Notes under the pieces: generated by a model | The model's input: the letters and a program-made list of their open reading frames with translations, nothing else | What the model was told of the DNA's origin: nothing | Database searches by the model: none | Source of the DNA: Lachnospiraceae bacterium | Lineage (GTDB): Bacteria > Bacillota > Clostridia > Lachnospirales > Lachnospiraceae | Assembly: GCA_029054245.1 (NCBI GenBank) | Contig: JAIDFQ010000004.1 | Coordinates: 62,001 to 126,000 of the forward strand | Length of the DNA stretch: 64,000 bases | Reading direction: 5' to 3' | Shown here: positions 1,947 to 61,945 of the stretch, in pieces | Numbering within the stretch: the stretch's first letter is position 1 | How the letters are laid out: each line of letters opens with the position of its first letter | Made by a program: the position numbers and the translations under genes

Positions 1947-2018
1947 AGTAAAATTAGTATACCACAAGATAATTTTTCAATCAAGAAAAAAGTGGATTAA
2001 AATACCTTCCCTAGTAAC

Positions 2019-2368
2019 AGTTCATCCCACAGGGGCGGTGCAGCAGGGGCGGCATAACACCGACAGAAAAGAACCGCTGCCGCTGCCATCACGCACTATC
2101 GTTTCAAGGCTCTGGCGAAAAATCGGCAATTTCACTTACAGAATGGTGAGGTATCAGGGGAATCCGGCATGGATGCCGGATTAGGAGCCATGCGGCATGG
2201 ATGCCGCCGGGCTTCGACCCGTCCGCCTTGAGATACCTATATCCAATTCTGTTAGTGAAATCCGATTTGTAGACGAGACTTGAAACGATAGTGCGTGATG
2301 GCAGCGGCAGCGGTTCTTTTCTGTCGGTGTCATGCCGTCCCTGCTGCACCGCTCCTGTGGGATGAACT
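2019..2368. repeat. Giant hairpin element copy 1 (90-nt arms, ~170-nt core)
   Basis: Arms 2019-2108 and 2279-2368 are reverse complements at 87/90 positions by eye; core shared with copies at ~59.6-59.9 kb and 60.2-60.6 kb. Confidence 0.92.
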
Positions 2369-2378
2369 ATTATCTTCT

Positions 2379-3485
2379 CTATTCTTTACGCGCCAAATAT
2401 TCTGACTTGATATTTTCTATCAGAATATCAAAAAAAGATCGCGCCGTCTTCTGAATCCCCTTCTTCGTGGTATCGTCCAATTCTTTTGCCGCCGCCGCAA
2501 TATTCTGAAGGCATTTTTTCCAGTCCGCGCCAAACTCGAACACATTGGACGCCTCCGACGCAGATACCACCTCGTACAGCGTGTCTACAAACGCATGGGT
2601 CTCTTCTTCCGTAAGCGAAAGAATCCACTCATTTAAGGCTGCATCCCTCATGATCTTGCTGCTGGTCATATTTTTTGCCCGTACAAAGGCATCCTTTCCC
2701 ACCTTCCAGCTATATGCATTATGCTGGAGCAGTCCTATCCCCTTACTTTCCACTACTTCGTAATCACTGTGATCTTCCAGAATCATCCCTACCAGTGAAG
2801 AGCGGGGAATGAATTTCACCACTCTGTCAGCAATCGCCTGAAAATTGCCCTGCTTGCGGATTTCCGGTCTGAAGCCCGGTCCGTCATTGTTGAACACCTT
2901 AAGCAGCTTTTCTCGCGTCCGTTCTGCACAGTTCATCGCCGCATAAACCGCAAGATTACCTCCCTTGGAATGTCCTCCTGCATAAAAGTCACCTGCAACA
3001 TACCCAGCCACCCTATCCATATATTCCACCGCCAGCTGCTGGGCGTGAAGGGGCTTGGAAAAAGCAAGGTTCATATCCTCCTTCCAGCCCACGATAGTCG
3101 CGTCGGTCCCTCTGTAAGCAATATAAATGTTCTTATCCTCCAGAACATAAGTCATGGCGGAAAACTGAGTCTCCTCGTCTTCGTTGATGATATTAACATA
3201 ATAGTTCATCTTAAGGGATCCAAACCTGACCGACTGGGCTGCCGCTGCAAAAAGCTCCTTATTATCCTCTCTATACCAGTAATCCTCTAAAATCCTGTCT
3301 CTGTCTGGATGATCATAAATACTCTGAATACTTACCGGCGTATTTCTCTTTTCGATGCCGGGCACAAATGGCTCATAATGCAGATACACAAGCTGGCATA
3401 AAACCAGACTATCCACCTCATTTAACGGTTTCTCCGAAAATGTATACTGCCCACATTTTTTTACATAATCTATGATATTCGCCAT
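2379..3485 (-). CDS. DUF2974 (Mbeg1-like) alpha/beta-hydrolase fold protein
   Basis: GGHSKGGNLAVYAA lipase-type nucleophile elbow; start MANIIDYVKKCG. Confidence 0.8.
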   Translation of the reverse strand: MANIIDYVKKCGQYTFSEKPLNEVDSLVLCQLVYLHYEPFVPGIEKRNTPVSIQSIYDHPDRDRILEDYWYREDNKELFAAAAQSVRFGSLKMNYYVNIINEDEETQFSAMTYVLEDKNIYIAYRGTDATIVGWKEDMNLAFSKPLHAQQLAVEYMDRVAGYVAGDFYAGGHSKGGNLAVYAAMNCAERTREKLLKVFNNDGPGFRPEIRKQGNFQAIADRVVKFIPRSSLVGMILEDHSDYEVVESKGIGLLQHNAYSWKVGKDAFVRAKNMTSSKIMRDAALNEWILSLTEEETHAFVDTLYEVVSASEASNVFEFGADWKKCLQNIAAAAKELDDTTKKGIQKTARSFFDILIENIKSEYLARKE

Positions 3486-3525
3486 TATCATTGTCGCCTT
3501 TCTTAAAAATACATGGTTATCACAA

Positions 3526-4653
3526 TCAATATAATATTCCATCATAATATTGTAAAAGCAATTTCACCACCCGGCTATAGCTGACTGTGCCGTCTGCTAC
3601 ACCGTTTAAAGTAAGCGTCGTATCTAAAAAAGTATCTGCCGCCTGCTTTACCGTCTCTGTGCTTAAGACTGCCTTTTTTTCCACCTGCTCCCATGCCTCA
3701 TTTGTAAGAAACATTTTGTCAACAGCTACCTGCTGGGAAATCTGGGGGTGTTCAAGATAAATTTCTGGATCTTCGTCTATCGCCTTTATGAAATCCCTGT
3801 CAAGATAACCAATCACACTTAGGTAAGCGCTGTAGCGAAACATCGGATCTTCTGCATCCACGCAGGCAAGATAACCGATAAAATTTGCCTCATCCTCTAA
3901 AATAAAGCCTTTCAGATGGGATAGTTCATGACACATAGTCACTGGCATATTGGTTACATACATCTGCCGATTGTAGTTTGCTTCCATCGAAAAAGGAAAG
4001 TAGTAGCCCATAATATACTGCTGGCTGTAAAACTCCGACAGGAACAGCTTTTTGGGTTCAGGATAATACCCCTTTAGATTTTCAAACCGATCTCCCAGCC
4101 TCTGCATCTGCCTTACCGCCTCTTTTTCCATATCTTTCTGATAAAGCAGGTAGCCTTGCGCATCCCGCCCAAAAGTAGGTGCAAGCTCATTTGCCTGCAC
4201 TACCACATAATCCCGAAGCGCAGCAATTTCTTTGACACCGTATTCCCTATCCCGGCTGCCGCCGATTTCAAACCTTTCATTGATTGGAGATGCCTGATAC
4301 AAAAGGAAACAGTTGAGCGTCATTATGATACAGACAATACCGAACACCCAGTAAATAAAAAATGCATATCTTTTATATGCCCGCTTCCAGCCTTCTAAAA
4401 GCCTCCGCCTCATAACAATCAAAAGAATGCCTCCCACTGCCAATGCAAACACCAACAGCACAGCCAGATACAGCATCCATTCTCCTACGGAAAAGGGAAA
4501 AAATCCCGTTATCCTCCCATACGTCTCCACCCAGACGGGGAAAACATGGTTTACATAAAAATTACTAAATCCCTTCCACATTCTGCCTATGATATTTAAG
4601 AGCACAGAAAACAGGATCATAACGGCCGGTGCCCAGCGTTTCCATTTTTTCAT
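3526..4653 (-). CDS. DUF3810 family membrane protein with HExxH motif
   Basis: Three N-terminal hydrophobic segments and VTMCHELSHLKGF. Confidence 0.8.
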   Translation of the reverse strand: MKKWKRWAPAVMILFSVLLNIIGRMWKGFSNFYVNHVFPVWVETYGRITGFFPFSVGEWMLYLAVLLVFALAVGGILLIVMRRRLLEGWKRAYKRYAFFIYWVFGIVCIIMTLNCFLLYQASPINERFEIGGSRDREYGVKEIAALRDYVVVQANELAPTFGRDAQGYLLYQKDMEKEAVRQMQRLGDRFENLKGYYPEPKKLFLSEFYSQQYIMGYYFPFSMEANYNRQMYVTNMPVTMCHELSHLKGFILEDEANFIGYLACVDAEDPMFRYSAYLSVIGYLDRDFIKAIDEDPEIYLEHPQISQQVAVDKMFLTNEAWEQVEKKAVLSTETVKQAADTFLDTTLTLNGVADGTVSYSRVVKLLLQYYDGILY

Positions 4654-59429: not shown

Positions 59430-59569
59430 TCCTCCAGTTGCCTGTTTCTCATACGTAATCTTTTTATTAGTATACCATCATTCCCCCGTTCTTCGCAACA
59501 GGGGAAGTTGCCCTTTGGTGAACTGGGTGTATGGTAATATAAGGGCAGGTTGGACAGGAGGCGCTTGGT

Positions 59570-59917
59570 CAGCGGGAGGATAGGGAGGCAGCTTTCGGGA
59601 GCGGTAAATACGGCGGGGATGGCTTTCAGGGCGGACGGTGCAAGATATTGTTTCAAGGCTCGTCTTCAAAACCGTATTTCACTAACAAAATGGCTTTACA
59701 TGCTTCAAGGCGAACGAGTCGGAGCCAAGCGGCATCCTGCCTAATGGCTCCTAATTCCGCCATCCATGGCGGAATTCCTCTGATTATTCAACCATTTTGT
59801 AAGTGAAATTACCGCTTTTCCGCCAGAGCTTTGAAACAATATCTTGCACCGTCCGCCCTGAAAGCCATCCCCGCCGTATTTACCGCTCCCGAAAGCTGCC
59901 TCCCTATCCTCCCGCTG
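59570..59917. repeat. Giant hairpin element copy 2 (87-nt perfect arms; core inverted relative to copies 1 and 3)
   Basis: 59570-59656 is the exact reverse complement of 59831-59917; weaker pairing continues outward. Confidence 0.92.
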
Positions 59918-60202
59918 CCCAAGCCGTCTCTCCTTTCTGCCACACCTATCCTCCTGCCCAGTCTGCCCTCACCACTTTTCTGTTTCTCAAACTACCACTA
60001 TAGATTAGAGGAAACATAATCTCCTTGGTACTATATTTGAGCAAATAAAAAACTATTTTTGATAATACCTTATAGCCAAAGCAACCTCAAGGCAGGGTTA
60101 CAGAATATTAAAAATTTCGCATCACTGCCTTGCCCCTTACATAAACGGCAGCTCCCTGCTCCCCTATCTAGACCTCAGCAAGACTCTTGACGTCTGGAAG
60201 GA

Positions 60203-60627
60203 GGCATGGGAGGGAGTGGTGCACCGGGGCAGGCGGCGATGAAGCAGCATGGATAGAAGCCAGGCTCTGGCAGGATGCAGTGGGGGAAGACAACGGTATC
60301 CGGGTACGGCGCCTGTTTCATCTTTGCAAGGCTCTGGCGAAAAATCGGCAATTTCACTTATAGAATGGTGAGATATCAGGGGAATCCGGCATGGATGCCG
60401 GATTAAGAGCCGTGCGGCACGGATGCCGCTTGGCTCTGCCCCGTCCGCCCTGAACGATCTACCTCCATTCTATTAGTGAAATCCGATTCGGAGACGAGAC
60501 TTGCAAAGATGAAACAGGCGCCGTACCCAGATGCCGTTGTCTTCCCCCACTGCATCCTGCCAGAGTCCTGCTTCTATCCATGCTGCTTCATCGCCGCCTG
60601 CCCCGGTGCACCGCTCCCTCCCATGCC
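60203..60627. repeat. Giant hairpin element copy 3 (128-nt arms)
   Basis: 60203-60330 pairs with 60500-60627 with about 6-7 mismatches; core closely matches copy 1. Confidence 0.92.
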
Positions 60628-60664
60628 GGTACATCAGGGATCCCCGTCCCCCCTATCTCTAACC

Positions 60665-61945
60665 TCAGCCAGGCTCAGAAATCCGACTGACCCCTACATA
60701 AATATTAGAGATACTATACCAAGTTGGATAATCTACAATTCCAGACTGTGGAAGATCGAAGATCCTCTGAAATGTTCTTACTGCTTCGGCAGTTGCCGGT
60801 CCGTAGATTCCGTCGGCAGAGATGGTGGGAATCGCGGGATAATTTCTGGCAATTCGGTTCAACTGTTGCTGGATCTGCCTGACCTTTTCACCTGAAGCTC
60901 CTATATTCAGGTTATAGCCGGGAAATGATGACGGAACACCTGCAACACTCTGGGCTGTGTTAATGTACATGTCGCTTCCGTAGTAGTAGTGGATGATATC
61001 TATTGCAGAATAGCCCTCTTCTCCCAGATATTTAGAGCCCCACTGGCTCAATCCGTTGCATGTGACTCTTCTGCCGTCACAGTAGGATGTGAAAATCGGC
61101 TGGCGCACCCCCGGACGGGATAAATAATTGGCAAACACGCTGTCTACAATTCTGTCGATATTCTGGTAAAAGTTTCTGCCGTGCATCCATTTCTGGTCGT
61201 ATGCCGTGGAAGAAGTAATGGTAAAATTATACCCCTTATTCCGATACCACTCTGTATATACTCTGTTTAAAGTAAAAGACATGATGACTAGCGTGTTGGC
61301 ATATATGGCGCTTTCCGGCCAAGTGGCGTAAATTTCAGAGGAAACAACATTTTTGATATAATCCCTGTATCTTACATAGTAATTGGGCGCCGTTGGATCG
61401 TCTGGCACACCATCATGCACCACCACGTATTCTGGAATCACAACGCGGCTTAAAACGATTTCACCGCTCTCATCCATAGGCTTGATTTCATCTTCGGGAA
61501 TTTTGGGCGGATACTCGCCGTACAGTGTATGATCTGGAATCACGATTAATTCTTCCTGTTCCTGGGTCTCCTCTAGCGGAGTCAGGCTGACTGGCTGCAC
61601 AGCTGTGACATCTGGAAGAATCTCTGTTCCAGATATCATAAGCGGCTCATACCCCGGCGCTTCAATCTGAATGTTGTATTCCGAGTAGGGCTGTTGTTCC
61701 ACCGGAGTCAGACTGTATTCTAAGGGCGGCGCCGGCAGGTCTATTTCCTGCGTCTGACCTGATGAATCCGTGGTAAGCTTTTCTATGGTTACATCTGGAA
61801 CGCCTGTATAAGAAATGGTTACAGTGGCATCCTGTATCGGTATCAATCCCAGCGTAGAAGTCACATTAATCTGGAGCTTGCCGGAATAGGTGTTATCCAC
61901 CTGTGCACTTCGTAAAATATTTTCGGGCATAAAATACCTCTGCAT
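60665..61945 (-). CDS. SpoIID-like and peptidoglycan-binding domain protein
   Basis: QPIFTSYCDGRRVTCNGLSQWGSKYLGEEGYSAIDIIHYYYG and GASGEKVRQIQQQLNRI...ADGIYGPATAEAVRTFQ. Confidence 0.87.
   Translation of the reverse strand: MQRYFMPENILRSAQVDNTYSGKLQINVTSTLGLIPIQDATVTISYTGVPDVTIEKLTTDSSGQTQEIDLPAPPLEYSLTPVEQQPYSEYNIQIEAPGYEPLMISGTEILPDVTAVQPVSLTPLEETQEQEELIVIPDHTLYGEYPPKIPEDEIKPMDESGEIVLSRVVIPEYVVVHDGVPDDPTAPNYYVRYRDYIKNVVSSEIYATWPESAIYANTLVIMSFTLNRVYTEWYRNKGYNFTITSSTAYDQKWMHGRNFYQNIDRIVDSVFANYLSRPGVRQPIFTSYCDGRRVTCNGLSQWGSKYLGEEGYSAIDIIHYYYGSDMYINTAQSVAGVPSSFPGYNLNIGASGEKVRQIQQQLNRIARNYPAIPTISADGIYGPATAEAVRTFQRIFDLPQSGIVDYPTWYSISNIYVGVSRISEPG

Follow-up and report, generated by a model that had tools for sequence, protein, structure and literature searches.

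Three giant hairpins around a catalogued core

The window (the whole stretch of DNA analysed here, 64,000 nucleotides) contains three giant hairpin elements (Table 1). Copy 1 is complete, and its right target-site duplication overlaps the stop codon of the adjoining minus-strand gene (2379-3545). No transposase gene lies inside its ~360 bp, where the longest spurious ORF has 81 aa. Copies 2 and 3 form a divergent pair; in the terminal-repeat scan, no clear terminal repeat was found for copy 2 and none was detected for copy 3. The preliminary description of this DNA had recorded copy 1 at 2019-2368, with 90-nt arms complementary at 87 of 90 positions. These arms were confirmed (2019-2108 against 2279-2368) and the hairpin stands, but the element is slightly longer than was described and has an 8-bp duplication around it. 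Across the first 6 kb of the window, the best-matching arms of 60 nt form 58 pairs, against 30-33 in three Markov-shuffled versions, and the RNA fold of 2015-2372 reaches -272 kcal/mol versus -121 for shuffles (z = -29). It was also correctly described that the core recurs at about 59.6-59.9 and 60.3-60.5 kb, that an internal loop and the strings AATTTCACTTA/TTAGTGAAAT are present in all three copies, and that the arms differ between copies while each pairs with its own partner. Alignment of the arms of the three copies confirmed that they differ, as beyond the inner ~20-25 nt they align no better than shuffled sequence. The flanks of copy 3 (60161-60186 and 60650-60676) contain imperfect direct repeats of ~25 nt (CCCCTATCT..ACCTCAGC.AG.CTC), far longer than an 8-bp duplication, of which the right one overlaps the adjacent gene at its 3' end.

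Table 1. Positions of the giant hairpin elements and their parts in the window.
Feature	Position	Strand	Remarks
Copy 1, complete giant-hairpin element with type B tip	2014..2373	+	360 bp; terminal repeats, flanking duplication and arms
Copy 1, left 8-bp target-site duplication CTTCCCTA	2006..2013	+	7/8 identical to right one
Copy 1, right 8-bp target-site duplication CTTCTCTA	2374..2381	+	7/8 identical to left one
Copy 1, left terminal inverted repeat GTAACAGTTCATCC	2014..2027	+	Begins GTAA
Copy 1, right terminal inverted repeat	2360..2373	-	Minus strand reads ATAATAGTTCATCC
Copy 1, 5' giant arm	2015..2112	+	93/98 complementary to 2275-2372, ungapped
Copy 1, 3' giant arm	2275..2372	+	Partner of 2015-2112
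Copy 1, tip, RF01731 TwoAYGGAY	2113..2275	+	77.3 bits (cut-off 43)
Copy 1, first AYGGAY loop (ATGGAT)	2169..2174	+	Folds as hairpin loop
Copy 1, second AYGGAY loop (ATGGAT)	2197..2202	+	Folds as hairpin loop
Copy 2	59563..59924	-	Arms 59563-59661 and 59826-59924, 97/99 paired
Copy 2, tip, RF01731	59661..59825	-	77.7 bits
Copy 3, divergent partner of copy 2	60203..60627	+	Arms 60203-60334 and 60496-60627, 125/132 paired
Copy 3, tip, RF01731	60335..60496	+	81.9 bits

All three cores match Rfam family RF01731 (TwoAYGGAY) end to end, over model positions 1-168, with scores of 77.3, 77.7 and 81.9 bits where the gathering cut-off is 43 bits. The core of the giant hairpins is an already catalogued family, and the earlier statement that it does not belong to a named family was wrong: for the core, an Rfam entry exists. 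Weinberg et al. (2010, PMC2864571) listed TwoAYGGAY as 'probably' an RNA, with its function unknown, and in 2014 CsrA binding was proposed for it since its loops fit the CsrA motif (PMC4333381). The giant arms fall outside the RF01731 model, which ends at the tip. The only remark on an external stem in PMC4333381 is that it is poorly conserved in the older TwoAYGGAY model, and no description of the giant arms was found in the open-licence literature. The elements resemble RF01731 in their end-to-end core matches, their two GGA-containing loops and their distribution in Clostridia and the gut, whereas copy-specific giant arms, mobility, terminal repeats and a link to IS66 are absent from the Rfam model. 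There are two tip subtypes, A and B, and all three window copies have type B; some loops are AGGA variants that lack the Y of AYGGAY. At two intergenic sites (G000_L032/G020_L142 and G000_L005/G036_L088) a type B tip in one species stands opposite a type A tip in the other, and this difference at the same site suggests tip replacement or repeated insertion.

Distribution and mobility of the elements

The genome of the window (G000) has 45 RF01731 matches, 43 of which carry near-perfect arms of 33-170 nt (~92% paired). In the wider set, arms were present on 178 of 194 detected matches, some of them duplicated between loci, and half-armed copies exist. Genomes of the same genus have from 0 to about 38 matches each, and in a sample of the order RF01731 occurred in 34 of 395 genomes, 30 of which belong to the same family. 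The arms of elements from other genera are likewise long and copy-specific. The elements lie between genes (a crude ORF call placed 1 of 142 within an ORF), their median distance to facing stop codons is 26 nt, and divergent pairs such as copies 2 and 3 are frequent. The arms are G+C-rich and the flanks A+T-rich. Purines make up on average 60% of the 5' arm and exceed 50% in 136 of 148 elements, but this is uninformative on the transcribed strand because palindromy makes it true of both strands. A phage or plasmid as carrier was rejected, as there were no matches in phage or plasmid collections, nor in viral contigs. Linkage of the elements to a particular protein gene was rejected as well, since the genes beside them include no recurrent family except spurious repeat ORFs and a generic ABC ATPase.

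The best-preserved copies end in terminal repeats GTAACAGTTCAGCC and are bordered by 8-bp target duplications, and the common end GTAACAGTTCAG emerged from comparison of the most similar copies. Of the roughly 155 armed elements, no more than 16 retain clear terminal repeats at both ends (at least 9/12), where 1.9 would be expected with shuffled motifs; copy 1 is among these 16. The 8-mers that flank the terminal repeats match at 4.75 of 8 positions versus 2.25 +/- 0.37 with permuted partners (0/5000), and this excess occurs at length 8 only. The combination of terminal repeats and 8-bp duplications points to a DDE transposase. The ends of IS66 elements begin with GTAA and their target duplication is 8 bp long (PMC11946415), and two IS66-family elements in sister species turned out to have the ends of the hairpins. 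L357 (in G024) is complete and consists of 1824 bp with one 485-aa transposase, ends GTAACTATTCAGCC (12/14 match) and an exact 8-bp duplication AGGAATTA. Its transposase matches Pfam DDE_Tnp_IS66 above cut-off, and the NCBIfam IS66 model with E = 6e-42, below the curated cut-off. L358 (in G009) starts with exactly GTAACAGTTCAGCC (14/14), at its left end only. The terminal repeat GTAAC..TTCAGCC and the 8-bp duplication are thus common to the hairpins and L357/L358, but compared with IS66 insertion sequences (PF03050) the hairpin element is small (~360 bp), lacks a transposase gene and is palindromic throughout.

In G000 itself, the hairpins' terminal repeat was not found with the intact IS66 subgroups (C28, C12). 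A broken DUF6444/IS66-type transposase relic with four in-frame stops (G000:C59:3758-4207) is possibly the dead autonomous partner, and since nothing but this damaged relative of the matching transposase is left in G000, present activity is unlikely. A Y1 (RAYT-type) transposase was rejected as mobiliser, as PF01797 gave 0 matches in G000. REP/BIME elements with RAYT are likewise numerous intergenic palindromes close to the 3' ends of genes, but the hairpins differ from these by the lack of a Y1 enzyme in G000 and by the terminal repeats and 8-bp duplications that point to a DDE enzyme. With bacterial MITEs and foldback elements they have in common that they are small, non-coding and intergenic, with terminal inverted repeats and, probably, movement in trans; the differences are the hairpin arms of up to 170 nt, which evolve in concert within each copy, and the conserved structured tip.

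Element-free orthologous sites exist in sister species, and clean empty sites without either arm were found in the comparisons of G020 with G000 and of G036 with G020. At the site of copy 1, G004 and G009 have 75 nt in place of 377, of which ~40 nt resemble the outer 3' arm, so that a remnant left by a deletion is more probable here than a virgin site. Two copies in G000 (L017 and L022) are 96% alike over 361 nt, arms included. The expectation in the preliminary description that a MITE would carry its arms along therefore holds for these two copies, while the arms of older copies have since diverged. Some arms extend beyond the terminal repeats, which needs an extra step, either arm growth or nesting. 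That description had also considered a palindromic mobile element, and this idea proved right in view of the terminal repeats, the 8-bp duplications and the IS66-family partner with the same ends. We infer that the hairpins are probably a non-autonomous palindromic MITE of about 45 copies, moved in trans by an IS66-family transposase, the interior of which is a giant hairpin with an RF01731 tip.

Concerted evolution of the arms

To follow the evolution of the arms, both arms of both species were aligned at 17 orthologous sites. The pairs, a few of which may go back to separate insertions in one gap, contain 210 compensated versus 66 one-sided columns and 120 symmetric versus 16 asymmetric indel columns. 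In the eight closest pairs (flank identity mostly 90-97%) there were 39 compensated versus 16 one-sided columns, and 17 of these 39 were transversions. Divergence of the arms is similar to or higher than that of the flanks and usually higher than that of the core. Eight clean sites could be compared between G020 and G036, and at two of them the tip is inverted with respect to the flanks, with a core identity of 0.97-0.98 only as reverse complement. Several genomes are short-read MAGs, in which a tip enclosed by long arms may be assembled in the wrong orientation. An initial gradient of mismatches with distance from the tip disappeared when only long arms were included and was rejected.

Mismatches in the arms comprise 126 G-U versus 172 A-C, and in the core helices the ratios of G-U to A-C are 66:62 and 19:18. 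A tRNA control had 15 G-U versus 0 A-C, but the set was small and its selection came from a program biased against mismatches. Since G-U is not in excess over A-C, RNA-level selection on pairing is not supported. Covariation in the core is strong (at least two Watson-Crick types in 31/44 and 14/40 pairs), but as G-U equals A-C it is not decisive for action as an RNA. Pairing is better explained by arm-to-arm copying at the DNA level than by RNA selection. Template switching homogenises the arms of inverted repeats and inverts spacers (PMC8604942, PMC8794818), and templated correction, which makes no distinction between types of mismatch, fits best; its published signature is the combination of arm homogenisation and spacer inversion. 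In comparison with the quasipalindromes described there, the arms here are 100 nt long, dozens of sites would be involved and the process would extend over species-level time. Of the two explanations for pairing in the preliminary description, arm-to-arm correction by template switching is therefore the better supported, by compensated columns and mismatch types, while the mismatch types lend no support to selection for pairing at the RNA level. Its 'structured RNA class' stands in so far as the core is RF01731.

We infer from this the following scenario. The element would insert together with its arms, and the palindrome would extrude at replication forks, where arm mutations could be copied onto the opposite arm by template switching or intra-palindrome conversion. 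Each arm would thus drift while matching its own partner. The same copying process could invert the tip and extend the arms beyond the original ends. The tip itself is conserved separately, and both of its loops carry GGA on the same strand.

Alternatives, implications and a second repeat family

Some observations would fit with arms that are not inserted with the element but form later, when the host flank is duplicated in inverted orientation, which would reduce the element proper to the tip alone. The outer sequence of arms that exceed the terminal repeats is non-homologous but self-complementary, homology between copies often stops at symmetric points, and the empty site of copy 1 in G004/G009 has ~40 nt like one outer arm. 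However, recent copies have common arms up to the common terminal repeat and clean empty sites contain neither arm, which weakens this reading, and a deletion is the simpler explanation of the sequence in G004/G009. We therefore consider it very unlikely. It is also improbable that pairing is kept by selection at the DNA level instead of copying, with a host or element protein that recognises the long cruciform or single-stranded hairpin. Equal G-U and A-C counts suit pairing that is judged on both DNA strands, and conserved core mismatches persist though correction should erase them. Still, arm length ranges from 33 to >170 nt and half-armed copies occur, and multi-base symmetric indels together with two-sided transversions (17/39, close pairs) point to templated copying. 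Moreover, such a protein has no counterpart in a linked family beside the elements or in a Y1 transposase in G000.

A role as functional RNA, in which the element is transcribed as a CsrA-titrating, CsrB-like RNA and RNA selection keeps the arms paired, draws on the fit of the TwoAYGGAY loops to the CsrA-binding motif (PMC4333381). At least two GGA-loop hairpins lie on one strand in 129 of 156 scored elements, and at 29 loci of other genera GGA loops are almost never on both strands. In the order sample, csrA was present in 34/34 RF01731-positive versus 194/361 RF01731-negative genomes, and in the conservative comparison within the family in 30/30 versus 52/72. Two features expected of a CsrA-binding sRNA, several GGA-loop hairpins and the presence of csrA in the host, were thus found. 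On the other hand, csrA is also common where the element is lacking and the co-occurrence is confounded by phylogeny. G-U is no commoner than A-C in arms or core helices, and symmetric indels are hardly explicable by point compensation. Elements just downstream of genes are in sense orientation in 38 cases versus 58 in antisense, and this lack of a sense-strand bias argues against simple read-through expression. Taken as an explanation of the paired arms, the functional RNA seems doubtful to us, and we prefer the IS66-type MITE with arm-to-arm copying. Within the latter, the tip, if it has a role at all, would most likely serve as an RNA site to which CsrA binds, a role that others have suggested; such binding is a live but unproven hypothesis.

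What was known is the TwoAYGGAY core; new is the giant-hairpin IS66-type MITE around it, with arms that evolve in concert. An unexplained Rfam family hereby gains a genomic vehicle, and dozens of replicate palindromes provide a natural system to measure concerted arm evolution and tip inversion. More tentatively, the curated 'structured RNA' may be the apex of an IS66-type MITE whose covariation comes mainly from arm-to-arm DNA copying and not from RNA selection. If this is true, some RNA candidates supported by covariation would be palindromic mobile DNA, exposed by equal G-U and A-C counts. The finding is also a warning that covariation alone can arise at the DNA level, for which the comparison of G-U with A-C mismatches is a simple check. 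If the tip binds CsrA, a transposon family would be seeding gut bacteria with decoys for a global regulator.

Besides the RF01731 elements there is a second palindromic family with a different tip (..CGTCACCGCGCTCTCGCTCCATAAAAACGCAGCAG..), represented by L176:1257-1461 (G036), L183, L188 and L307-L324, to which no Rfam family corresponds above cut-off. It is present in at least 23 copies in G036 and G028, 18 in G020 and 2 in G000. Their arms are copy-specific, ~20-58 nt long and in many cases end with GC.CAG/CTG.GC, and the copies are sometimes paired with RF01731 elements. The copy L176:1257-1461 occupies the intergenic site at which the window has its copies 2 and 3. At this site G020 has a tip-less remnant (L177), from which the tip was apparently deleted, and its ~20-bp arms resemble the outer arms of the different-tip hairpin of G036.
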